Source: Chitinophagales bacterium (GTDB lineage: Bacteria; Bacteroidota; Bacteroidia; Chitinophagales; Saprospiraceae). From it: a stretch of 64,000 nucleotides of DNA. The first letter of the stretch is position 1. Each line of letters starts with the position of its first letter. Location of the stretch: the NCBI GenBank assembly GCA_022360175.1, contig JAKSDI010000049.1, positions 1 to 64,000 on the forward strand, written 5' to 3'. Shown here piece after piece: positions 38,253-50,678 of this stretch. The notes under the pieces are model-generated. The model worked only from the letters and a program-made list of their open reading frames with translations, was not told the origin of the DNA and did no database searches. The translations under genes were made by a program, and so were the position numbers.

Positions 38253-38260
38253 TAACTTTG
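38253..38260 (+). promoter_or_regulatory. -7 promoter element of the first paralogous lipoprotein gene
   Basis: TAACTTTG matches the TAnnTTTG consensus exactly and is followed by ATGCTCAC. The same element and trailing word recur before both paralogues (42272-42279, 42955-42962), at nearly the same distance from the preferred start. No clear -33 TTG is seen. Confidence 0.65.
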
Positions 38261-38295
38261 ATGCTCACGAAAAATCATAGAAAATGAGGCTTAGA

Positions 38296-38808
38296 ATGAA
38301 AGAATTGTTATTTTTTGTACTGCTTATTTTGAGTTTCTTTTCCTGCAACGAGCATAAAGAAATCAACGTAGATTCAACAGACAATTCTTTCATAGAATTT
38401 AGAAATAGTGTCAATAACATAGTAACTACACTAATCACGGATAATCAATTAACAGGAGCATCTGATGACTACGCTCATATAGAATTTCTTGTAAGTGACA
38501 ACGTAGTTGGAAATACCATAACTTTCGATCTACATATAGAATCTCATTATGATTTTACAGCTATCTTCTCTGTTAACCAGGAAGATGCCGATGAATGGAG
38601 AATTCATAGTTTAATAGAAACAGGAACTAATAATTTTAATGTTGTAATGAAGAATTCCGCCCAAATTGCTTGCTGTATTGCACAAGAAGAAGTTGTATGC
38701 CTTCTTCCTTCCGGCGATCCCATTGGCTGTGATGCTTGTTTCGATCCTGAGAACCCCAAGAAATGCATTATCATCACGACCTATAATGAAATGGTAACTA
38801 ATGGATAG
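38296..38808 (+). CDS. Small lipoprotein, paralogue A of a three-member family
   Basis: I do not recognise the family. The start at 38296 is preferred over the ATG at 38284, since the paralogue at 42317 lacks the upstream ATG and the distance to the promoter then agrees in all three copies. The 170-residue protein has a lipobox (FFSC, C17 of this start) and an acidic, strand-rich mature part. It shares the pattern ...DDYAHIEF...F.VNQEDADEW... with the other two members. The C-terminal part differs by its extra cysteines (IACCIAQEEVVCLL, CDACF). It ends 9 bases from the stop of the convergent helical-repeat gene. Confidence 0.8.
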   Translation: MKELLFFVLLILSFFSCNEHKEINVDSTDNSFIEFRNSVNNIVTTLITDNQLTGASDDYAHIEFLVSDNVVGNTITFDLHIESHYDFTAIFSVNQEDADEWRIHSLIETGTNNFNVVMKNSAQIACCIAQEEVVCLLPSGDPIGCDACFDPENPKKCIIITTYNEMVTNG

Positions 38809-38817
38809 TCATTGCTT

Positions 38818-40245
38818 TTAAGGCATTGCTATTTCCTTATATTTTTCTAATATCCATTCTCGATAAAAAATCTCTTTGCTTTGGCAATAATTGAGAGCAA
38901 ACTGTTCGATTGCACTTGTTGAAGCATTCTCACTCAATTTTTTCAGTTCTTTTATAGCCTTCACAAATAAGCTGTAATTAGCTATATATTGAGCTGAAAA
39001 TGCCTTTTCTTTTCTTATATACTGTAGAGTCGATTTCATATAAGCATCTAGCGCCAGAAACTCTTTAAGCTCATAATAAATCCTTAACTGAAGTGATCTT
39101 CCTACTATTTTATCACTTACACTTTTAAAATCGACTCTTGCTAACAATTTAAAAGCCGCTTCAAATTTTTTTTGATGAAATAAGATATTAGCACTAGACA
39201 AACTAATTACATTTTCCCTTATTTCTTCTTTTAAGTAGCAGCTAAACGCCTGAATAAATTGTTTTGCCCAGTTATATTCTTTGGCAGCACAACTGATCGT
39301 AATCGCATTAACAAACGTTCGTCTGCTAATATATTCGTAGTGAATTAAAAGGCCTTCTTCTATTTCAAAGCGAATGACATCAAAAAGATCAGCCGCATTT
39401 ATAGCTCGATTGTAATAACACCATACAGTATAATCCTTAAATACAGCATAAAGAACTCTCTTGGCATGTACCGAAAAGGAGTGAATGTATTCAAAAACCA
39501 GCTTTTTAAGCTCACCAAATCTTGAATAATCTTCTTTTGTGACTGCATCATATAACTGGAGTAGTAAACGCAGGGTAATTGATGCTTTTGGTCCAAGTTC
39601 TCTTATTGCCTCTATAAGCTGATCATGATTAAAAGGAGTGGTGGTATTATTTTCTATTTTCCGCCTGTGCGCTAATTCCAATACTAAAATCATCCGATGA
39701 TGAAAGTAATAGTTATCCAGATATTTCATCAAATTCATTAGTGAAGGTTGGAACTTCTTTGATGTTTGGATACTATAAGGGTGGTCATATTTTGTGATGG
39801 ACAACCAATACTGATACTCATAGTAAACTCCATTTTTTACTTCTTGTTGGCCTAGTTTACTCTGAATCTTTTCTGTTTCTTTTATAAAAAGGCTGTCAAG
39901 CTTTCTTCTTTTACAGGCTAAGAGTAGTAGCTTATCCTTCATATTTTGCTGAAGCTCAAGTTCCTTACTTACAATGAAGTCTTTTAAATCAGTATACAAC
40001 AAAGACATTAAATCTGTTATTCGTTTAAGTCTTTGAGATTCACCATATTCTGGATATACTTTTTTGGAGAGATAAAGCTTTGTCAGATTTTTGGAGTTAA
40101 AATCAGGGTGGTATCTTTTCAAAAGCGTCAATAAATGTAATCCTCTTTTCTTTTCTTTTGGGCCACTCTGAAGATATATGGTAAACTCCCTCAACTCTGA
40201 CTTAGTCAGTGATTTTAAGAATTTAAGCAATTTCGAATCCTTCAT
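38818..40245 (-). CDS. Helical-repeat protein, paralogue 1 (unknown family)
   Basis: The start is set at ATG 40245 (475 residues), because the paralogue at 43554-44990 starts at the same place (MNDSKLLKFLK against MKDSKLLKFLK) and the longer frame only adds an odd leader. No signal peptide or membrane segment is present. The N-terminal 90 residues (KLLKFLKSLTKSELREF..., YHPDFNSKNL, YPEYGESQRLKRITDLMS) resemble a domain I recall from many uncharacterised Bacteroidota proteins. The rest is built of helical, TPR-like pairs (e.g. SRRTFVNAITISCAAKEYNWA). Probably cytosolic and protein-binding. It converges on a small lipoprotein gene. Confidence 0.8.
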   Translation of the reverse strand: MKDSKLLKFLKSLTKSELREFTIYLQSGPKEKKRGLHLLTLLKRYHPDFNSKNLTKLYLSKKVYPEYGESQRLKRITDLMSLLYTDLKDFIVSKELELQQNMKDKLLLLACKRRKLDSLFIKETEKIQSKLGQQEVKNGVYYEYQYWLSITKYDHPYSIQTSKKFQPSLMNLMKYLDNYYFHHRMILVLELAHRRKIENNTTTPFNHDQLIEAIRELGPKASITLRLLLQLYDAVTKEDYSRFGELKKLVFEYIHSFSVHAKRVLYAVFKDYTVWCYYNRAINAADLFDVIRFEIEEGLLIHYEYISRRTFVNAITISCAAKEYNWAKQFIQAFSCYLKEEIRENVISLSSANILFHQKKFEAAFKLLARVDFKSVSDKIVGRSLQLRIYYELKEFLALDAYMKSTLQYIRKEKAFSAQYIANYSLFVKAIKELKKLSENASTSAIEQFALNYCQSKEIFYREWILEKYKEIAMP

Positions 40246-40373
40246 GTTTTCGTTTAGGTTAGTTTTTGACCAAAACCTTTTCCAGAAATAAATCACTGAT
40301 AATCAATGTAATAACCCCCTACCCTTCTCAACAATGCACTTAAAACAGTATGTTTTCCTATAAGTTTCTTCAA

Positions 40374-40425
40374 AAAAAGTTGGATTGCTATAAGCTTAGC
40401 GAAGAGCTATTATTGGGTATAATTA
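40374..40425. repeat. Conserved 52-bp upstream block, copy 1
   Basis: This block begins AAAAAGTTGGATTGCTATAA and matches 45114-45165 without gaps (39 of 52 positions by hand). It lies 128 bases upstream of the helical-repeat gene on the minus strand; copy 2 lies 123 bases upstream of the paralogue. It may carry the promoter or a regulator site of these genes. Confidence 0.7.
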
Positions 40426-40527
40426 ACTGCAAACAAAACTTAATTCTAAACCAACCACAAATAAATTCAAAACTCCAATTTATTGTAAATAAAATTTAAT
40501 TTATAATTAACTTGAAACATTTTCATT

Positions 40528-41118
40528 ATGAAAAACCTATTCTCCATTTTACTATTAACAACAGTTATTGCTTTTTCTGCTAATTATGCACATGCTCAAT
40601 GTCTACCTGAAGCTGAAGAGCCTTGTTTGCCAGATTGTCCGCAAAGTCTATTTAGCGCTTATCAAACTATTCAAGTTACAATTCAGCCAGGATGTGTACT
40701 TGAAGTAACATATGCCTCACGAATTGCTTGTGGAATTTGGTATGACTATTATATAAGCAATGTACGAATTTTACAATACGGTTGTTGTCCATTTCTTGCT
40801 AGTGATGTAGCAACTATTTTAGATTTAGCCACCATTGCACTAATGGACGCAAACCCTGCTGGTTTCCCACCCAGCACACCATCTTCTGGACAAAACTGTT
40901 CAGTAAATTGGAGAGCTAATAAAGGAGCTTGTTGGCAACAAGTTGGAGATTGCCTGGTGCCTTGTACTCCAATGACAGACTGTTGTTTAGCAGCCTTTGA
41001 AGTTTGTGTTGATGCAAATGGCAATAAAACCATCACTAAACTAGGTAACATCTCTAATCCTCCAGCACCATGTCCAACAACAGGTGATGGTGATTGTGTT
41101 GATGTTTGTAATAACTAA
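40528..41118 (+). CDS. Secreted Cys-rich protein of unknown function
   Basis: The 196-residue protein has a clear signal peptide (cut near AHA-QC). The mature chain holds 17 cysteines, several paired (GCCPF, DCCLA, GDCLVPC, GDCVDVC), so it is probably disulphide-stabilised outside the cytoplasm. It carries no T9SS sorting domain. A small T9SS cargo gene follows after about 250 bases. The lipoprotein at 48005 has a similar NLDDCCPP type of motif but no clear overall homology. Function not proposed. Confidence 0.75.
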   Translation: MKNLFSILLLTTVIAFSANYAHAQCLPEAEEPCLPDCPQSLFSAYQTIQVTIQPGCVLEVTYASRIACGIWYDYYISNVRILQYGCCPFLASDVATILDLATIALMDANPAGFPPSTPSSGQNCSVNWRANKGACWQQVGDCLVPCTPMTDCCLAAFEVCVDANGNKTITKLGNISNPPAPCPTTGDGDCVDVCNN

Positions 41119-41163
41119 AAATTAGATGTAAAATCATTCACACCAAATAGGCAATCTTATTGG

Positions 41164-41276
41164 TTCTTAGACAAAACAGGCCTCGTGGTTCAAAGCAAAT
41201 AGTTTGAATGAAAATCCTACCTCTTTTGGGTACATTTTTTCCATCCAAACCATTTCCCACGAGCACTGTCTAAGAA
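41164..41276. mobile_element. Candidate short inverted-repeat (MITE-like) relic
   Basis: A 10-bp perfect terminal inverted repeat (TTCTTAGACA at 41164-41173, TGTCTAAGAA at 41267-41276) continues imperfectly inward (CTCGTGG/CCCACGAG). The enclosed 93 bases have no open frame. It could equally be a 3'-end hairpin of the Cys-rich gene. No target duplication was seen. Confidence 0.4.
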
Positions 41277-41367
41277 AGATTTTATTTTCAATAACAAAAT
41301 CGAGGAAGGCCGGGGTATTTTCAATAGGATACTACAATGCCCATCCTTTAATTAAAAATTAGATACT

Positions 41368-41874
41368 ATGAATTCAATTAAATTAATTCTATTAATAGTA
41401 GGCGGGTTCATCTGTAATCTTGCATTTGCCCAGTCAAGTAATTCTAAAGCCATCGCAGTAACAAAGGCAACTTCTATCAACGACTATGTGAAGTTGAAAA
41501 ATGGTTATTGGATGAAAATAAATGACCTTGAATGGACAGCAGTCGAAGATGAAAATACGCAAATGCCCAAAAGGCTTGTTGAACAAAACACAATAGGTAA
41601 ACCTAACATTACTTATTCTAACGCCAGAGAAGTATTTAGCGTATACCCAAACCCATCCAACGGGATAAGCAACATCCAAATAAACAGTGCAAATGGGCAC
41701 CATTTGGAATATGCTATTTACACACTTAGTGGGCAACAGATGCAAGAAGGGAACATGATACTAAACGATAACGATCAAGGACAAATTGACTATCAAACCT
41801 TACCGGAAGGCGTTTACATTTTAAAAGTAAATGTTGGAGGACAGGAACAAGCACTGAAGCTGTTGAAGATGTAA
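41368..41874 (+). CDS. Small secreted protein with T9SS type A sorting domain
   Basis: The 168-residue protein has a signal peptide (cut near AFA-QSS). Its C-terminal part from about residue 90 is a type A T9SS sorting domain (FSVYPNPSNG, YTLSGQQMQEG, PEGVYILKV...LKLLKM). The short N-terminal region of about 65 residues (LKNGYWMKINDLEW) has no known domain. It is exported through the outer membrane by type IX secretion and likely attached to the surface. It may belong with the Cys-rich protein upstream. Confidence 0.88.
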   Translation: MNSIKLILLIVGGFICNLAFAQSSNSKAIAVTKATSINDYVKLKNGYWMKINDLEWTAVEDENTQMPKRLVEQNTIGKPNITYSNAREVFSVYPNPSNGISNIQINSANGHHLEYAIYTLSGQQMQEGNMILNDNDQGQIDYQTLPEGVYILKVNVGGQEQALKLLKM

Positions 41875-42271
41875 AAATCATTTTTTATCTAAACAAGTGG
41901 TGTGGTAATGGGTTAAATCAGTTGATGGAATGTTGTGGTGCAGCTTTCCAATAATGCCCCGCAAACCGGAGAAGATCACCAACCAATTTGATCCATTACC
42001 TATCATTCTAATCTCTCTCACTATTTGATACTTGACAGGGAGCCTTTCTTGAATCAAAATGCCCTGATGAGACTTAAAGTAACTACGGCAGAGCATGTTT
42101 AGGTTTTATAAAAATCTGTATACCTTACAACAGCCTGTTAATTAAAAGCAGTGCCGCAAGATAATCAAACAACTAATTGTCAATACCTTACATCGAAAAG
42201 ACATCACAATTAAGCCTTAAAATAATTGGTTTCGATAAAAACTTAAACTAATTACTTTATCTGTAGAACCT
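41875..42271. other. Intergenic region with no supported gene
   Basis: No feature was found until the promoter at 42272. A 72-codon frame on the minus strand (41878-42096) has no recognisable domain, and a chance frame of this length is possible. The stretch after 42138 (AAAAGCAGTGCC...) is repeated at about 42838, before the next paralogue, so the duplicated unit extends into this region. Confidence 0.5.
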
Positions 42272-42279
42272 TAACTTTG
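42272..42279 (+). promoter_or_regulatory. -7 promoter element of the second paralogous lipoprotein gene
   Basis: TAACTTTG followed by ATATTCAC. It ends 37 bases before the ATG at 42317. Confidence 0.65.
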
Positions 42280-42316
42280 ATATTCACAAGTTAATTCACA
42301 GATTAAAAGGTTTAGG

Positions 42317-42796
42317 ATGAAGAGAACATTATTTTTTGTACTAATTATTCTTGGTTTATTTTCTTGTGAAAAGAAAGAAATCCAAAAGGTCCCCACTGAG
42401 GTTTCATCTATCGAATTTAGGGACGGAGAAGAAGAATCGCTCGTTTCTGCAGAAATTACGGAGTATCAATTATTAGGAGAACCAAATGATTATGCTCATA
42501 TAGAATTCTTTGTAGAAGACACTGATGAAGAAGAAATAAATTTTGAATTATACATCGAATCCAATTATGATTTCCTGGGTAGCTTTTTCGTTAATGAAGA
42601 GGATGAAGACGATTGGGACATTTCAAGTTTTGAGTCAATAGGTGACAATAATTTTATTATCCAATTACAAAATCTTCCATCTACATCTACTATTGTACAA
42701 GAAGAAATAATATGTATGCGCCCTCCTGATAAATGTGGAGATTGTGATAAACCTCATCCAGTCGATTGTGTCGATTTGTTTATTAATGATCTATAA
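42317..42796 (+). CDS. Small lipoprotein, paralogue B
   Basis: The 159-residue protein is close to paralogue C (MKRTLFFVLIILGLFSC against MKKTLFFVLIILGLFSC) and more distant from paralogue A. Cysteine C17 is the lipidation site. The mature part is very acidic (GEEESL, NEEDEDDWD) and ends with a Cys-containing tail (DKCGDCDKPHPVDCVD). The shared core YAHIEFFVEDTDEEE...FELYIE suggests a beta-sandwich. The function is unknown. It lies in a tandem pair with paralogue C. Confidence 0.8.
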   Translation: MKRTLFFVLIILGLFSCEKKEIQKVPTEVSSIEFRDGEEESLVSAEITEYQLLGEPNDYAHIEFFVEDTDEEEINFELYIESNYDFLGSFFVNEEDEDDWDISSFESIGDNNFIIQLQNLPSTSTIVQEEIICMRPPDKCGDCDKPHPVDCVDLFINDL

Positions 42797-42954
42797 TAAT
42801 CGGCCAGTTAAAACCCCTTAAACTTATTCCATCTATAAAAGCAGTGCCCAAAAAACCACAATCAACTGTTTATCAATTTTTTAAACCAAAAATCTTCAAG
42901 ATTAATAATTGGTTTTATTAAAAAATTAGAATTTCTTCAATCTTACATAATCTA

Positions 42955-42962
42955 TAGCTTTG
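42955..42962 (+). promoter_or_regulatory. -7 promoter element of the third paralogous lipoprotein gene
   Basis: TAGCTTTG followed by GTGTTCAT. It ends 35 bases before the preferred ATG at 42998, the same distance as for paralogue A. Confidence 0.65.
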
Positions 42963-42997
42963 GTGTTCATTAAATTTTAAAAGCTATGAAATTAGGA

Positions 42998-43474
42998 ATG
43001 AAGAAAACCTTATTTTTTGTATTAATTATTCTTGGTTTATTTTCTTGTGAGAATAAAGAGGTTCAAGAAAGCCCTCTAGAAGTCACATCCATCGAATTTA
43101 GAGAAGAAGAAGAATTAATTGTTTCTGCAGAAATCACGGAACATCAATTATCGGGAGAAGAGGATAATTATGCTCATATAGAGTTCTCTGTTGAAGAAAC
43201 CGATGGAGAGCTAATCTCTTTTGAGTTATATGTCGATTCTCAGACTGGCTTTTTAGCTTCATTTCTTGTAAGCGAAGAAGATGAGGATGATTGGTCAATC
43301 AAAAGTGTCGATGTATTAGATACAAACCATTTCGGAATCATGCTACAAAATCCTCCTATCCCAGAGGGAATCATACAAGAAGAAATTATATGTATGGTTC
43401 CTATCCCTTGTCCTGAAGATGCTGATCCTAAAGATTGTGTCGCTCTAGTTATATCTGGCCAAAGTGTAGAATAA
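42998..43474 (+). CDS. Small lipoprotein, paralogue C
   Basis: The start at 42998 (158 residues) is chosen by comparison with paralogue B; an in-frame ATG at 42986 would add four residues. The lipobox cysteine is C17 (GLFSC). The acidic mature region (REEEELIVSAE, SEEDEDDWS) and core YAHIEFSVEETDGE match paralogue B closely. The C-terminal tail with CMVPIPCPEDADPKDC differs. It was probably made by tandem duplication of paralogue B. Confidence 0.8.
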   Translation: MKKTLFFVLIILGLFSCENKEVQESPLEVTSIEFREEEELIVSAEITEHQLSGEEDNYAHIEFSVEETDGELISFELYVDSQTGFLASFLVSEEDEDDWSIKSVDVLDTNHFGIMLQNPPIPEGIIQEEIICMVPIPCPEDADPKDCVALVISGQSVE

Positions 43475-43533
43475 CAAAGTTAGTTTTAAAGCCTTTAGTT
43501 CAGTCAATTTATGATATAAAGTTGTTTGAAGTT

Positions 43534-43541
43534 TAGCTTTG
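43534..43541 (+). promoter_or_regulatory. Orphan copy of the lipoprotein-family promoter element
   Basis: TAGCTTTG followed by GTGATCATC resembles the elements before the three lipoprotein genes (TAGCTTTGGTGTTCAT before paralogue C). No lipoprotein frame follows; the convergent helical-repeat gene ends 13 bases on. It looks like the remnant of a lost fourth copy. Confidence 0.5.
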
Positions 43542-43553
43542 GTGATCATCTCG

Positions 43554-44990
43554 TTACTGTTTTTGAGAAATGACTATTTGCTGATATTTCTCTAATATCC
43601 AATCTCTATAAAAGATTTCTCTGGTTGCACAATATTTAGCATAAAATTGGTTCATCAGTTTTTTTGGTGTATAAGCATCCAATTTCATCAAATCATTAAT
43701 TGCTTTCACAAATAGACTATAGTTATCTATATATTGCTGGGAAAAAGTTGTTCCTCGTTTTATGTATTGTAAAGTAGCTTTTATATAAGCATCTAGTGCT
43801 ATAAATTCTTTGAGTTCATAATAGATACGTAGCTGAAGTGATCTTCCTATAATTTTGTCTCCTACGCTCTTGAAATCAACCTTGGCTAAAATATCAAAAG
43901 CAGCTTTAAACTCCTTTTGGTGAAATAATATATTAGCCATAGATAAACTAACTACGTTCTCCCTTATTTCTTCTTTTAAGTAAAGGTTAAACTTTTCAAC
44001 AAATTGCTTAGCCCAAGTGTATTCCTTTGCTGCACAACTAATAGTTACCGCATTAGCAAAAGCTCGTCTGCTTACAGATTCGTGATTAATCAACAATTTT
44101 TCCTCTATTTCAAAACGAATTACATCAAAGACTTTGCCTGCACTTATAGCCTGATTGTAATAGCACCAGGCTGTATAGTCCTTAAATACTAAATAAATGC
44201 TCCTCTTTGCGTATGAAGAAAAAGAATGAATATACTTAAAGATCAATCTTTTGAGTTGATCAAATTTCAGATAATCTTCGCTAGTTATTGCTTCGTATAA
44301 TTGGATTAGTAATTGAAGTGTTATGGACGCTTTTGACCCAAGTTTTTTTATTGCATCTATAATCCAGTCATTATTAAACTGTGCAAAACTATTGTCTTCA
44401 GTCTTTCTTCTATGCGCCAATTCCAGTACCAAAATCATTCGATGGTGATAATAATAATTATCTAAGGATTCCATTAAATGAATCAAAGACGAGTGAAACT
44501 CCTTTGAAGAGCGCATGCTGTACGGATGATCATATTTTGTTATGGCAAGCCAATATTGATATTCATAATAAGCTCCATTCTTTATTTCTTGTTGCCCAAG
44601 CCTGGATTGTATTTTTTCAATTTCCTTTATTACAAAAGCATCTAGTTTTCTCCTTTTATAAGCTTGAAGTAAAATCCTATTCTTTGTTTCTTTTTGTAAA
44701 TCCAGTTCCTTTAGAACCATGAAATCATTTAAATCATTAAGCAATGAAGACATCAAGTCAGTGATTCGTTTAAAATTACGCTCTTGCTTGTACTCAGGAT
44801 ATATTTTTTTATGGAAGTATGCTTTGCTTACATTTTTAGAATCAAACTCAGGATGATACTTTTTTAAAAGCTTCAATAAGTGTAAGGCTCTCTTCTTTTC
44901 CTTTGGCCCGTTTTGGAGATATACTGTAAACTCTCTCAGCTCTGACGTACTCAATACCTTTAAAAACTTAAGCAATTTAGAATCATTCAT
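43554..44990 (-). CDS. Helical-repeat protein, paralogue 2 (unknown family)
   Basis: The 478-residue protein is an obvious paralogue of 38818-40245 along its whole length (e.g. GPKEKKRALHLLKLLKKYHP; YYEYQYWLAITKYDHPYSM; LKEEIRENVVSLSMANILFHQKEF, cited here by parts). It has no signal peptide, membrane segment or enzyme motif. The N-terminal domain contains conserved SELREF and LLxxLxKYxPEFD-like motifs, and the remainder is TPR-like. It ends next to the tandem lipoproteins B and C, in the same convergent order as paralogue 1 and lipoprotein A, and the upstream DNA is conserved too. The gene pairing suggests a joint role, but no mechanism is visible. Confidence 0.82.
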   Translation of the reverse strand: MNDSKLLKFLKVLSTSELREFTVYLQNGPKEKKRALHLLKLLKKYHPEFDSKNVSKAYFHKKIYPEYKQERNFKRITDLMSSLLNDLNDFMVLKELDLQKETKNRILLQAYKRRKLDAFVIKEIEKIQSRLGQQEIKNGAYYEYQYWLAITKYDHPYSMRSSKEFHSSLIHLMESLDNYYYHHRMILVLELAHRRKTEDNSFAQFNNDWIIDAIKKLGSKASITLQLLIQLYEAITSEDYLKFDQLKRLIFKYIHSFSSYAKRSIYLVFKDYTAWCYYNQAISAGKVFDVIRFEIEEKLLINHESVSRRAFANAVTISCAAKEYTWAKQFVEKFNLYLKEEIRENVVSLSMANILFHQKEFKAAFDILAKVDFKSVGDKIIGRSLQLRIYYELKEFIALDAYIKATLQYIKRGTTFSQQYIDNYSLFVKAINDLMKLDAYTPKKLMNQFYAKYCATREIFYRDWILEKYQQIVISQKQ

Positions 44991-45113
44991 GGTGCTGTCT
45001 GGGCTAGTTTTTGTTAAAATCTGTCACTGCTAAACAATTGGAAATCAAGGCTCAAAAACTCCATTCCTCTAAGAAAGATATAAAATCGTGCTTTTTATTA
45101 TATGGTTTTTCGG

Positions 45114-45165
45114 AAAAAGTTGAATTGCTGTAGGCTTAATAAAGCTTTATCCTTGGTCATAATTA
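45114..45165. repeat. Conserved 52-bp upstream block, copy 2
   Basis: It begins AAAAAGTTGAATTGCTGTAG and aligns gap-free with 40374-40425. It lies between the divergent helical-repeat gene (start 44990) and the subtilisin gene (start 45197), and could serve either. Confidence 0.7.
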
Positions 45166-45196: not shown

Positions 45197-47905
45197 ATGA
45201 AATTCTTATTGCACTATATTTTTTATGTTTTAGTATTCCTTTCCTATAACTATAGTTATCTAAACGCCCAGGATACTGCTCCACAGGGATATTACTTATA
45301 TGTGGAAGCATTGCCTACTTCCCCTTTACCTCAAGAAGAATCTCCTTCAAATACATTAAGCACAAGCGAAGAGTTGAATAATTATTTTGATCAATACAAT
45401 GTGACCCAGTTCATTCAGTCTTTCCCTAATGCCCAAAATCCTGAGTTAGCTCATTACTATGAAATTCACGCAGAAGGGGATATCACGCAACTTAAAGAGG
45501 ATATAAATGAGAAGGCTTACTTTGGAAAATTGTTTCTAGCTGATTACCCAGTCATAGCATCTTGTCCTAATCCTGTTGGTATAAATGATTATTGGATTAC
45601 CCAAAACTGGGCCAATAATTATGCGCTGAATTTAATTGAAGCCCAATGTGCCTGGACAATTACTACCGGAAATAATGTAGAGGTTGCAGTAGTGGATACT
45701 GAAATAGATACTTCCCATGAGGATTTAACTAACCAAATCCTTAGAACAGTAGGCCCACCAGTAACATATGCTGCTTATCATGGTACAATAACCGCCGGTA
45801 TGGTAGCAGCGCAAACAAATAATAATAAAGGGATTGCCAGTATTGGCTATAATACCAAGATTTCATTCTACCGTACATCTGGCTTTAATCTATGGCAAAG
45901 AATTTGGCAAGCTTATCAGGATGGAGCCAGAATTATTAATGTTAGCTGGTCAGGGATAGGAGCATATCCTAACCTTCTTGCTGTTAAGGAAATGATTACT
46001 AACGGCACCCTCATAACACTAGGAGCAGGAAATACCCCTAATGCTATGTTTCATAGTGCCTATGCTCACATTGACGGGGCTATTAATGTAAGTGGTGTAG
46101 ATGCTCAAGATAATCATGGTCCAACAGGACATGCTCACAATTCCCATATTGATTTATGCGCTCCATCTATAAATGTAACCTCAACATATCAAGGTAATAC
46201 ATATGGTGGAGGTTGGGGAACTTCATTCGCGGCTCCACAGGTTGCAGGTACAGCAGCCCTCATGCGGTCTGTAAACCCATGTTTAGCAGCAAATGAAATT
46301 GAAAACATGCTCAAAGTAACCTGTGACCCCATTGCTGATGAATCTACTTATCCAGGCTTAGTAGGGGCTGGAAGGCTTAATGCTTATAGAGCTGTTGAAA
46401 AAGCACAAGCTGCCAATTCGACTACACTTGATTTATACATAAAGGATAGATATGATGATTTTGGTATCTCCGGAGGATATCACTGGCAAGCAACAAGAGA
46501 CAACAGCCCTGATATTTGGGTTCGTAATCAAGCAGATGGTTTGACAAATCACACTCATCAAGATCCTGAATATCAAAGTGCTACCCCTGTATATGTTTAT
46601 GTAAGAGTTAGAAACAAAAGCTGTGATACGACAAAACTGAATGAAGTCTTGCGCCTATATTGGTCGAAGGCTTCTACATGGTCTTCATGGCCTCAAAACT
46701 GGGATGGCTCCTCCCCTTTAATAGGGAATGTAATTGATAGTATACCCATCCCCAGAATACTCCCAGGTAGAGATACTATACTGGAATTCACCTGGAATAT
46801 ACTAAATCCTAATATCCACAATAATTGGGCAACTTGCTTACTGGCAAGAATTGAAGAATCTCCTATTGATCCAATTACAACATATCCAAACAGAATTGAT
46901 GATGATGTTTATTTTAATAATAATATCGCATTAAAAAACATTACTGTAATAGATAGTCTTCAGGGAATCAACTCATTTGATGAAACCTTAAGTGCTCTGG
47001 GAAGATATTTATTCATTGGCAATCCAGAAAGTTCGACATCAAACTATGATATCCGGTTTTCAGAGTACCCTGAAACGCCCTCGGAAGGCTCACTAAGCCA
47101 AGAAGCAGAAATAAAAATATATACTGATCAAGAAGGATGGCAACTTTTACTACCTTATGTTGAAGTAACGGAAGGAATTGAGGTTTTTAATGAATTAGAA
47201 AAAGCCTTCTTAATCACTGAACCTGATGTCCGACTTCAGAATGTTGATTTTGGAGCGTTCAACAGGATACCTATATACGTAGGGTTCAACTTTCTAACCG
47301 AAGCAGTTGAGAATGATTATTTTACTTATCAAGTTCAACAATTTTTTACTGAATCCGAGCAACCCCTTGGTGGAGAATACTTCTATATATATAGAAACCC
47401 AAGGCCTCCTTTTTATGCCTATGCTGGTGAAGATCAAACTATTAATATAGGAAGTTCTGCTCTTCTTGAAGCTGAAATTATCGACGAACCAGCTATCTAT
47501 AACTGGTATAATAGTAATGGAGCACTTATACATCAAGGCACTTACTGCGTAGTAGAACCATCACAAACGGAAACATATCAGCTAGAAGTCATTTCTATAG
47601 CTGATGGCTACAAAGACTATGATGATATTGAGGTGAGAGTAATCAAAAGCTGGATTAACAGCATTGCTCCAAATCCTGCAAGTGGAGATGGTGAAGTACA
47701 TATCAACTACCAAGTAGAAGAAGGCAAGGATAATGCCTCCATAATGATATTAAATCAAACAGCTACTTCTCAAAATACTTATCCTATTGATCCTTATAGT
47801 GAAGAGCTAATCGTGAATTCATCTTCTTTTACCAGTGGTGCTTATACTGTTAATTTAATTGTAGAAGGAATAGTGATCGACTCTAAAACACTAATTATAC
47901 AATAA
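45197..47905 (+). CDS. Subtilisin-like (S8) serine protease with T9SS sorting domain
   Basis: Secreted protease of 902 residues. The ATG at 45197 is used instead of the GTG at 45173, because it gives a compact signal peptide (cut near LNA-QDT). The catalytic triad is complete: D167 (AVVDTEID), H195 (YHGTITAG) and S343 (GTSFAAPQVAG), with the oxyanion Asn in GAGNTPN. Residues about 410-600 form an unclassified strand-rich region, possibly an interaction module. The end (SIAPNPASGDGEVHI..., SGAYTVNLIVEG) is a T9SS type A sorting domain. It is transported across the outer membrane by T9SS. The substrate is unknown. Confidence 0.92.
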   Translation: MKFLLHYIFYVLVFLSYNYSYLNAQDTAPQGYYLYVEALPTSPLPQEESPSNTLSTSEELNNYFDQYNVTQFIQSFPNAQNPELAHYYEIHAEGDITQLKEDINEKAYFGKLFLADYPVIASCPNPVGINDYWITQNWANNYALNLIEAQCAWTITTGNNVEVAVVDTEIDTSHEDLTNQILRTVGPPVTYAAYHGTITAGMVAAQTNNNKGIASIGYNTKISFYRTSGFNLWQRIWQAYQDGARIINVSWSGIGAYPNLLAVKEMITNGTLITLGAGNTPNAMFHSAYAHIDGAINVSGVDAQDNHGPTGHAHNSHIDLCAPSINVTSTYQGNTYGGGWGTSFAAPQVAGTAALMRSVNPCLAANEIENMLKVTCDPIADESTYPGLVGAGRLNAYRAVEKAQAANSTTLDLYIKDRYDDFGISGGYHWQATRDNSPDIWVRNQADGLTNHTHQDPEYQSATPVYVYVRVRNKSCDTTKLNEVLRLYWSKASTWSSWPQNWDGSSPLIGNVIDSIPIPRILPGRDTILEFTWNILNPNIHNNWATCLLARIEESPIDPITTYPNRIDDDVYFNNNIALKNITVIDSLQGINSFDETLSALGRYLFIGNPESSTSNYDIRFSEYPETPSEGSLSQEAEIKIYTDQEGWQLLLPYVEVTEGIEVFNELEKAFLITEPDVRLQNVDFGAFNRIPIYVGFNFLTEAVENDYFTYQVQQFFTESEQPLGGEYFYIYRNPRPPFYAYAGEDQTINIGSSALLEAEIIDEPAIYNWYNSNGALIHQGTYCVVEPSQTETYQLEVISIADGYKDYDDIEVRVIKSWINSIAPNPASGDGEVHINYQVEEGKDNASIMILNQTATSQNTYPIDPYSEELIVNSSSFTSGAYTVNLIVEGIVIDSKTLIIQ

Positions 47906-48004: not shown

Positions 48005-48607
48005 ATGACTAGACTATTCTTTTATGCAATGTTTTTTTGTTTTTTAATTCTTTCTTTCTCCTGTCAAAAAGAGGAATTTATCTCTCCCATAAATGATATA
48101 GAAACAAATAAGTCATTACCTTCTAATGATGTACAGACTGTGTCGGCACGTTCTTTTTGCCAATTATCTGCTGTTTCTGCTCCAGATTATATTACATTAG
48201 CTACAACATTATTTGGAAATAGCGGAAATGGAATTGGCGGAACTATTAATAATTATTTACAGTGCAGTCCGACGCTTAACCTGGATGATTGCTGCCCGCC
48301 AGTAAATAATGTTTTCCTCCCCTTAGGGAGTTCTTATACTGAAATATGGGGGAGTCCTGTACCTCCTAATGTTCCAAACTTTTATGACTATTTAGCTAAT
48401 GGAGTGGTGACTGTTGCTGAACAAGAGCAATTTCTTGCAAGAATGGAACAGATTATAGCAACTACTCCTCCCCCTTTATGTTCGTTAGGAGGATATAATC
48501 CTGTCTCTTATTCTATTGGATGGAGCCCTAGTTTTTCTGGTGCTAATGAGATATACATTCACCTAATAGTTAATTACCTTCCCTACTGTTTTTCTTTTTC
48601 TAGTTAA
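48005..48607 (+). CDS. Small secreted lipoprotein of unknown function
   Basis: The 200-residue protein has a signal peptide and lipobox (ILSFSC, C20). The mature part is rich in Ser, Pro, Asn and aromatic residues, with a few cysteines (SFCQLS, LQCSP, DDCCPP, LCSLG, YCFSF) that could pair. No domain was recognised. It follows the subtilisin after 100 bases and precedes a strong terminator. It may be a cell-surface or partner protein of the subtilisin, but there is no direct evidence. Confidence 0.7.
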   Translation: MTRLFFYAMFFCFLILSFSCQKEEFISPINDIETNKSLPSNDVQTVSARSFCQLSAVSAPDYITLATTLFGNSGNGIGGTINNYLQCSPTLNLDDCCPPVNNVFLPLGSSYTEIWGSPVPPNVPNFYDYLANGVVTVAEQEQFLARMEQIIATTPPPLCSLGGYNPVSYSIGWSPSFSGANEIYIHLIVNYLPYCFSFSS

Positions 48608-48645
48608 CTTGAAGAATAAAAGTTATACTTTATAATGTAACTAAC

Positions 48646-48688
48646 AATCCCGAATACCGACAAGAGTCGGTATTCGGGATTATTTTTT
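48646..48688 (+). terminator. Strong rho-independent terminator after the 48005 lipoprotein
   Basis: AATCCCGAATACCGAC (48646-48661) and GTCGGTATTCGGGATT (48666-48681) form a perfect 16-bp stem with a 4-base loop AAGA, followed by A and six or more Ts. Confidence 0.92.
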
Positions 48689-48875
48689 TGAAAAAAAATA
48701 TCCTCCTCATGCAACGAACCTAGCAAGCACCCGATATAGAGTGTGAAAGAGCTTATTGAGGTTTTAGTAATCCAGTAAAAACTCAATAAGCTTCTAACGT
48801 AAAACAGATCTGTAAGCGTTCGTATTTCCTCAGAGAGTACTTTAAATGAGTGAAGGACATAAAATATGAATATCA

Positions 48876-50678
48876 ATGCAAAGGATACTATTCTTTTTAT
48901 TAATATCTATTCTAGCAATCACTTCCTGTCGAAAAAATACGGAGGAGGTGACAAAAACAGAAAACCCTTATGTTCCTCCAATTATAGAGAATTGGGAACA
49001 AGCAATTGCACCAGTTACTGGAGATTTGACAGGGATGATAGTAGATGAAAATGGACAGGCAGTAGCAAATGCTTCTATTACTTTGGGCAATCACATTACT
49101 AGTACTACACAATTTGGTACGTTCCAATTTAAAAATGTAGAACTAAATGCCAGAGGAAGCCTGGTAAGGGTAGAAAAAGCGGGTTATTTCCCTGGTAGTC
49201 GACGCGTATTTGCTGTAGACGGAACAGAAAATAGAGTAAAAGTAGAATTGATACAAAAAACATTTGACTACTCTATTGATGCAGAGCAAGGTGGGGAGAT
49301 TGTTATGAATGGTGGTGCTAAGCTTAGCTTTAGCCCCAACTCCATCAAGACAGAAGAAGGATTGCCCTATACAGGTACAGTACGAATAGCAGCCAAGTGG
49401 TTAAACCCGGAAAATCTGAACACTTTTGACCAGATGCCTGGTAATCTTCAGGGTGTTAATCAACTAGCTGAAGAAGTAGCCCTAACTACGGCCGGTATGA
49501 TGGCAGTAGAATTAGAAAGCCCAGATGGCCAGGCACTCAATATCAGAGAAGGGCATACGGCTGAAATAGCGATGCCTGTTCCTTCTTCTCTTTCGGCAAA
49601 TGCCCCACCTAGTGTACCCACCTGGTCATATAGTGAAGAGCATGGGGTATGGGTAGAGGAAGGTAGTGCTAGCCTGCAAGGAGACTTTTACGTTGGTAAA
49701 GTCAGCCATTTTTCTTTTTGGAATTGGGATTATTATGGCCCTTTAGTTTCTTTCACTCTTACCCTATTAAATGAAGAGGGTACTGGTATTGAAGGATATG
49801 AAGTACTAATTAAAGATCCAGCAACGGGAACGTGTGGCTATGGCTATACAAGCACTGATGGAATACTTTCTGGTGTAATTCCAGAAGGGATAGAATTGTC
49901 ATTGGAAGTATACGGACTTTGTAATGAAGTAATACATCAAGAATTAATAGGGCCTTTTAATGAGGATGCTGATATTACGATTACAGTAACTGAAATTTAT
50001 CCGATAGCAATAACAGGAGAACTAGTGGATTGTGACAATAACCCTGTTGGTAATGGATTGGTAATAGTTGAATTTGATGGTTATTACCCACTATATCATT
50101 ATACAGATGGTACTCCATTTCAGGTCAACTTCTTCGAATGTCAGAGCATATCAGAGGCAACAATACAAGTTGTAGATTTAGGTAATGCATTGCAAAATGA
50201 TCCTATCACGATTAATGCTCCATTCGATGAAAATACAGACCTGGGACCAATCACAGTATGCGATAATGCGATAGAACATTATATTCAAGTGACAGTGGAT
50301 GGGACTGAAGAGCTTTATTTCCCTGTTGGTGGATATTATACACTCTTAGATACTGTAGGGGGAGTGTTTCAGTACGGAACTATTATCCGATTTGAGGGAG
50401 GAAACGATATTAAGAACGTATTCTTTTTGTTTCCTGGTGATGATGTTGGAGATTATGGTGCAAGTTCAGGCAATCCTGCTACCTTTAATGAGTTGGTTGA
50501 GGAAAATCATAATTGGTATTTCAATTCGAATAGTGGGGTTTTAGAAACCTTTGAAGTAAGTGCTTACGGTGAAATAGGTGAACCTATCATCGGTAGTTTT
50601 AGCGGCAATTTAGTAAATCAGTCTACAGGATTGGAGGTTCCTGTATCGGGATCATTTAATGTCATAAGGACTCAATAA
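48876..50678 (+). CDS. Large lipoprotein with carboxypeptidase-regulatory-like domain
   Basis: The 600-residue protein has a lipobox (ILAITSC, C18). Its first domain (VTGDLTGMIVDENGQAVANASI, cited by its ends; FGTFQFKNVEL) is a carboxypeptidase-regulatory-like beta sandwich at about 48-115. A ZU5-like or related beta domain follows (MNGGAKLSFSPNSIKTEEG), then further beta repeats (TLLNEEGTGIEGYEV, AITGELVDCDNNPVGNG). Proteins of this layout are common surface components in Bacteroidota. It starts 268 bases after the lipoprotein and is followed by the ECF sigma gene, with a palindrome between. No ligand can be named. Confidence 0.78.
   Translation: MQRILFFLLISILAITSCRKNTEEVTKTENPYVPPIIENWEQAIAPVTGDLTGMIVDENGQAVANASITLGNHITSTTQFGTFQFKNVELNARGSLVRVEKAGYFPGSRRVFAVDGTENRVKVELIQKTFDYSIDAEQGGEIVMNGGAKLSFSPNSIKTEEGLPYTGTVRIAAKWLNPENLNTFDQMPGNLQGVNQLAEEVALTTAGMMAVELESPDGQALNIREGHTAEIAMPVPSSLSANAPPSVPTWSYSEEHGVWVEEGSASLQGDFYVGKVSHFSFWNWDYYGPLVSFTLTLLNEEGTGIEGYEVLIKDPATGTCGYGYTSTDGILSGVIPEGIELSLEVYGLCNEVIHQELIGPFNEDADITITVTEIYPIAITGELVDCDNNPVGNGLVIVEFDGYYPLYHYTDGTPFQVNFFECQSISEATIQVVDLGNALQNDPITINAPFDENTDLGPITVCDNAIEHYIQVTVDGTEELYFPVGGYYTLLDTVGGVFQYGTIIRFEGGNDIKNVFFLFPGDDVGDYGASSGNPATFNELVEENHNWYFNSNSGVLETFEVSAYGEIGEPIIGSFSGNLVNQSTGLEVPVSGSFNVIRTQ

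Follow-up and report, generated by a model that had tools for sequence, protein, structure and literature searches.

Divergent pairs of a one-component regulator and its target gene are a familiar layout in bacteria, for example with regulators of the LysR or AraC type. A second related arrangement is that of the RRNPP systems (Rap, NprR, PlcR, AimR), in which a receptor of 250-500 amino acids with tetratricopeptide repeats (TPRs) is encoded adjacent to a Sec-exported propeptide of 10-100 amino acids (PMC10075063). TPR folds are also linked with the type IX secretion system (T9SS), and two reports present PorW and PorE (PG1058) as envelope components of this machine (PMC8754138, PMC7192894). 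Here, a family of cytosolic TPR proteins is described whose genes are paired with genes for exported proteins. The starting point was a duplicated cassette (positions 38,253 to 45,165) in a 64,000-nucleotide stretch of DNA, referred to as the window (positions 1 to 64,000 of contig JAKSDI010000049.1, assembly GCA_022360175.1), from a Chitinophagales bacterium of the family Saprospiraceae. In this cassette, small lipoprotein genes converge on two TPR genes, TPR1 and TPR2.

The TPR family resembles the RRNPP systems in that a cytosolic TPR protein is encoded beside the gene of an exported product, with many paralogues, and its members (about 465-490 amino acids, with TPRs) have the size and repeats of RRNPP receptors. 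The adjacent exported products differ from propeptides, measuring about 100-1900 amino acids across the family, mostly 100-1100, and 159-174, 196 and about 900 amino acids in the window. The RRNPP systems, whose receptors bind an imported peptide, are known from Firmicutes and from the phages and plasmids of these bacteria, whereas the TPR family belongs to another phylum. In the way it works, the family bears some likeness to an RRNPP receptor encoded beside an exported product, but its partners do not have the size of propeptides and it is not placed among the RRNPP systems. As in the LysR- and AraC-type pairs, the genes lie head to head, and the about 140-270 bp that separate them contain a conserved target promoter; unlike these pairs, the family has no recognised DNA-binding domain and one of its clades is arranged tail to tail. 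In contrast to PorW and PorE, the TPR proteins lack a signal peptide, are multi-copy and are tied to cargo genes. The papers searched on T9SS with TPR proteins, divergent genes or Saprospiraceae, and on RRNPP in Bacteroidetes, yielded no description of the family, and the pairs of TPR and exported proteins apparently form a large, undescribed gene-pair family in Saprospiraceae.

Pairing of TPR genes with genes for exported proteins

The conserved feature of the family is the pairing of a TPR gene with a gene for some exported protein, mostly a T9SS cargo gene lying head to head. In the genome of the window, 29 of the 31 TPR copies having an upstream neighbour were divergent from it, against a background of 56/194. 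The same layout was found for 59 of 65 copies in ten other genomes (background 96/300) and for all 84 copies at 79 GTDB loci (background 140/387), these loci being the product of a single query and biased towards one subgroup. The gap between the two genes has a median of 184 bp (quartiles 137-271). Head-to-head cassettes are also carried by Phaeodactylibacter xiamenensis and Lewinella cohaerens. Export was predicted with a simple signal-peptide rule, under which 495/1050 genes counted as exported; with this high background, contrasts count for more than raw rates. Gene starts were taken from a simple codon-score caller.

In this main group the divergent partner is nearly always a T9SS cargo gene, typically encoding an exported protein of 370-1400 amino acids. 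Among 97 divergent partner tails scanned, PF18962 (Por_Secre_tail) was present in 75 and CHU_C (PF13585) in 11. DUF7619 was present in some recurrent partners, and such cargo domains as can be recognised resemble adhesins, repeats or proteases. In each of 13 relatives tested, at least 50 T9SS-tail matches, counted up to 150, were found against 0-37 TPR genes; T9SS-tail proteins far outnumber TPR genes, and the TPR protein is therefore not a general secretion factor.

The genome of the window carries about 30-37 TPR copies, with paralogues 17-23% identical to TPR2, and relatives carry 0 to 37 copies per genome. Elsewhere in the phylum the family is scattered (11/296 genomes, counted by presence only), and most distant members in other families have the head-to-head layout. 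Two distant copies, G377 L298 and L302, lie divergent at 148-164 bp from exported proteins of 73-79 amino acids, near propeptide size.

The head-to-head pair of TPR and cargo gene duplicates as a unit. Similarity between TPR proteins correlated with similarity between their divergent partners (Mantel rho 0.69 in the genome of the window, 0.43 and 0.35 in further sets; each p 0.001), and did so in all three sets when the partner was taken without its C-terminal domain (CTD; rho 0.66, 0.32 and 0.37). There was no such correlation with the gene on the other, downstream side (rho 0.08, -0.02 and 0.04), and the unit therefore duplicates together with its cargo. A previous interpretation made from the window alone (the sequence-only reading) had proposed a duplicated unit of an exported lipoprotein and a cytosolic TPR-like protein. 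The unit of exported and cytosolic protein is borne out, the lipoprotein as general partner is not.

The two cassettes of the window

In the first cassette, lipoprotein A (38284..38808, plus strand; 174 amino acids, acidic, lipobox LSFFSC, Cys-rich tail, start possibly at ATG 38296) converges on TPR1 (38818..40245, minus strand), a cytosolic helical-repeat protein of 475 amino acids without signal peptide and with an isoelectric point (pI) of 9.4. Their stops are 9 bases apart. In the second, lipoprotein B (42317..42796, plus strand; 159 amino acids) precedes lipoprotein C (42986..43474, plus strand; 162 amino acids), which converges on TPR2 (43554..44990, minus strand), a cytosolic helical-repeat protein of 478 amino acids, with a stop-to-stop spacing of 79 bases. 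This layout agrees with that given in the sequence-only reading, which did not count in the cassette the exported genes divergent from TPR1 and TPR2. Upstream of TPR1 and head to head with it, a Cys-rich exported protein of 196 amino acids is encoded (40528..41118, plus strand), and the head-to-head neighbour of TPR2 is an exported subtilase (S8) of about 900 amino acids (45197..47905, plus strand). The open reading frame (ORF) of the latter opens at GTG 45173 and its signal peptide begins at ATG 45197; its C-terminal tail weakly resembles a T9SS sorting domain, with no Pfam score.

TPR1 and TPR2 are 68% identical over 473 amino acids without gaps. Their N-termini, MKDSKLLKFLK and MNDSKLLKFLK, show no hydrophobic segment and no signal peptide. 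The three lipoproteins (pI 4.0-4.3, several Cys in the C-terminal tail) can be aligned over their full length, B and C being 41-46% identical to A and 63% to each other. Purifying selection acts on all five genes (pN 0.17 versus pS 0.75 for the TPR genes, dN/dS about 0.2-0.35 for the lipoprotein genes), and the conservation of both coding regions noted previously was confirmed. No T9SS sorting domain was found in the lipoproteins. Neither TPRs nor lipoproteins gave a Pfam or NCBIfam match over the cut-off or a PADLOC match, in line with the previous statement that no toxin-antitoxin (TA) or defence family was recognised.

The lipoprotein family has three copies in the genome of the window, all within the window, and is present in 2/398 family genomes. 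The one true relative outside, in G185, also converges on a TPR gene with a gap of 48 bp. All four known copies, in two species, lie at TPR genes in the same gene order. The sequence-only reading had named rare adjacency of TPR homologues to the lipoprotein as the outcome that would speak against it. Taken literally this is what was found: only two of the about 30-37 TPR copies in the genome lie beside the lipoprotein, and with 2/398 genomes carrying it the lipoprotein was rejected as general TPR partner.

The gene at 41368..41874 (plus strand) codes for a small exported protein that carries PF18962, a T9SS sorting domain, at its C-terminus. An intergenic stretch of about 80 bp at 41182-41262 recurs at G000:C45:77170 with 75% identity. 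Downstream of the subtilase, on the same strand, two further lipoproteins of 200 and 600 amino acids are encoded at 48005-50678.

The window clade

A tree built from 161 TPR proteins placed the window copies in a clade of 22 members (support 0.88). The tail-to-tail layout seen in the window characterises this clade: for 18/22 members, a convergent gene within 130 bp encodes an exported protein, against 31/138 elsewhere (Fisher 1e-7). The partner was at most 400 amino acids long in 17 of these 18 cases, where the background of small convergent exported neighbours was 35/760. The layout was also found in a held-out test on 14 further clade members, from genomes with loci unused before. Twelve of the 14 converged on an exported protein (8 within 130 bp), a lipoprotein or a CTD protein of about 166-326 amino acids. 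Across the clade, the small convergent partners are varied lipoproteins and T9SS-CTD proteins.

A close divergent exported partner was found for only 4/22 members of the clade, against 99/136 elsewhere. These four are the window pair, the G185 copy and one other, and the window copies therefore carry both arrangements. The window TPRs have lost residues that are more than 90% conserved in the main group, e.g. R77, N271 and N283. The window cassette is a local form of a clade-wide trait within a wider paired system.

Peptides resembling GG-leader peptides, of 65 amino acids (L044:7846-8043, minus strand) and 63 amino acids (L061:5526-5717, minus strand), converge on two TPR copies. As usual convergent partner they were rejected, being seen at these two copies only. 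One of them matched TIGR04149 weakly, at an E value of 0.04 and below the cut-off.

Promoter regions

Intergenic DNA of the head-to-head pairs, read in the direction of the cargo gene, contains the motif tACAAAt-N5-WWWWW-TGT-N-YTTG-N20-CAYTTTTGTA. It was found in most GTDB cassettes (log-likelihood 843 versus about 125 for shuffled DNA, width 40). The motif corresponds to a predicted promoter with -33 and -7 elements, an ACAAA/TTTGT dyad lying just ahead of the -33 element. A matrix derived from other species matched, at a score of at least 8, 17/28 partner genes in the genome of the window and 1/252 other genes. The sole non-partner match was the rpe gene (ribulose-phosphate epimerase, L060:4558-5439), divergent from a TPR gene. 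Both here and at G001.L139, an rpe gene with a cargo-type promoter and a TPR gene diverge across a distance of about 1.0-1.1 kb.

Twelve exact matches to the core pattern were located in the 9.1-Mb genome, 10 of them at TPR copies. Two or three cargo-type promoter matches had no adjoining TPR gene or evident gene and no clear ORF. Exact ones without evident gene, L314 (G000:C96:26499) and L311 (G000:C49:84278), are perhaps decayed cassettes or RNA. On the TPR side, the score of a motif search exceeded that of shuffled DNA by a small margin at most, and a promoter common to the members of the window clade was sought and not found.

The sequence-only reading had described conserved upstream DNA with a TAnnTTTG leader and a 52-bp block. 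TAnnTTTG corresponds to the usual -7 box of Bacteroidota promoters (consensus, PMC6847099) and is not a special leader. The block is conserved, on the plus strand, at about 40362..40423 on the TPR1 side, as AAAAAG TTGGATTG (TTG 40385-40387) N20 TATTATTG (40408-40415), and at about 45102..45163 on the TPR2 side, as AAAAAG TTGAATTG (TTG 45125-45127) N20 TATCCTTG (45148-45155). It is best read as the putative promoter of the divergent exported genes at 40528 and 45197, because its spacing of TTG, N20 and box matches the cargo promoters, in the direction of those genes.

Structure of the TPR proteins

The AlphaFold2 model of TPR2 is all helical, with 23 helices and a mean predicted local distance difference test (pLDDT) of 91.5, and a profile search gave consensus TPR proteins as matches for residues 327-369 (E 1e-10). 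With the absence of a signal peptide, this supports the cytosolic TPR-like nature proposed previously. The closest structures to residues 143-478 were Rap (Z 14.4) and NprR (Z 13.8), at a root mean square deviation (rmsd) of about 7 and an identity of 6-10%.

RRNPP receptors have an N-terminal helix-turn-helix (HTH) or a Rap-type helical bundle. The N-terminal domain of TPR2 (helical, about 95 amino acids) was nearest to sigma region 4 (Z 6.1, rmsd 2.8, 64 residues), followed by a response-regulator C-terminal domain (Z 5.1) and pyrin (Z 4.2), all below the noise level stated for the aligner (Z under 8). The modelled resemblance to sigma region 4 is only suggestive. No known DNA-binding fold reached more than this Z of 6.1 in the structure list, absence from which is not exclusion.

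Discussion

The most likely reading, to which we give about an even chance of being correct, is that the TPR protein is a cytosolic regulator dedicated to its exported partner. The target of the N-terminal helical domain would be RNA polymerase or DNA at the partner promoter. The C-terminal TPR superhelix would bind a ligand; a peptide is plausible, and this peptide could come from the partner. Expression of each surface protein would thereby be controlled by its own paralogue, and the window clade would follow the same logic in trans, with the convergent gene as target. A shared control region between head-to-head genes and a partner-exclusive promoter are the usual layout of a regulator and its target, and the cognate pairing and the fold closest to Rap and NprR point the same way, as does the pI of 9.4.

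Several observations weigh against a regulator. The TPR proteins have no recognised DNA-binding domain, all matches of the N-terminal domain lying below the noise of the aligner. General TPR folds score nearly as high as Rap and NprR (proteasome lid subunits Z 12-13), so that RRNPP receptors are poorly separated. The cargo motif marks one subgroup, since neither the window clade nor most cassettes of G003, G005 and G199 have it, and where it is shared, one common sigma factor or activator could bind there rather than each TPR protein. In tail-to-tail pairs no control region is shared. This leaves adjacency as the constant feature, for which a chaperone or another partner acting at the protein level would account as well.

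Given adjacency in both orientations, the main rival of the regulator is a dedicated cytosolic chaperone or pilot, which would keep the cognate partner unfolded or hand it to Sec before export (and T9SS). Cognate pairing holds irrespective of orientation, and the TPR protein co-varies with its partner, even with the non-CTD part alone, in three sets. Proteins are bound by TPR folds, and a basic TPR protein here adjoins acidic lipoproteins (pI 9.4 and 4.0-4.3). A chaperone and its client normally share an operon, however, while the partner is here almost always on the opposite strand. Most T9SS cargo manages without a TPR gene, as seen in the 13 relatives, and a partner-exclusive promoter is not predicted. 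We regard the chaperone as possible and rather unlikely.

It is unlikely that one common sigma factor or activator reads the cargo promoter, with the TPR proteins as downstream sensors or modulators that bind it in a Rap-like manner. A single motif serving many diverged paralogues is consistent with this, as are Rap and NprR as best fold matches and an N-terminal domain without clear HTH. It leaves unexplained, however, why every cargo gene of the motif group has its own TPR gene beside it, and the window clade lacks the motif. Also doubtful is a putative Gram-negative counterpart of RRNPP, in which the TPR protein would sense a peptide from its own partner, for instance from the processed tail of a T9SS cargo or of a small lipoprotein, and feed back on the partner promoter.

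Numerous paralogous pairs duplicating as units, adjacent in either orientation, would suit an immunity or addiction-type unit, whose exported protein acts on other cells or the envelope and whose TPR protein protects the producer; this is very improbable, since neither partner matches a toxin, TA or defence family, the recognisable cargo domains are of adhesin, repeat or protease type and a cytosolic protein would not protect against a surface protein. That small lipoproteins lie by chance beside a widespread TPR family would fit their presence in just 2/398 genomes but is just as hard to credit, with all four copies at TPR genes in the same order in two species and a tail-to-tail exported partner that is clade-wide and held on unseen genomes.

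The paired system reaches about 37 copies in a genome and occurs across Saprospiraceae and patchily in other Bacteroidota. Through it, cytosolic TPR proteins are each tied to a particular secreted surface protein. A natural way to tell a regulator from a chaperone is offered by the clade whose partner has shifted from the head-to-head to the tail-to-tail position. If the TPR proteins are regulators, they would explain how a choice is made among many T9SS proteins for display, with a promoter code that can be computed. If the RRNPP-like reading were true, a genome would have some 30 parallel self-sensing surface-protein circuits.

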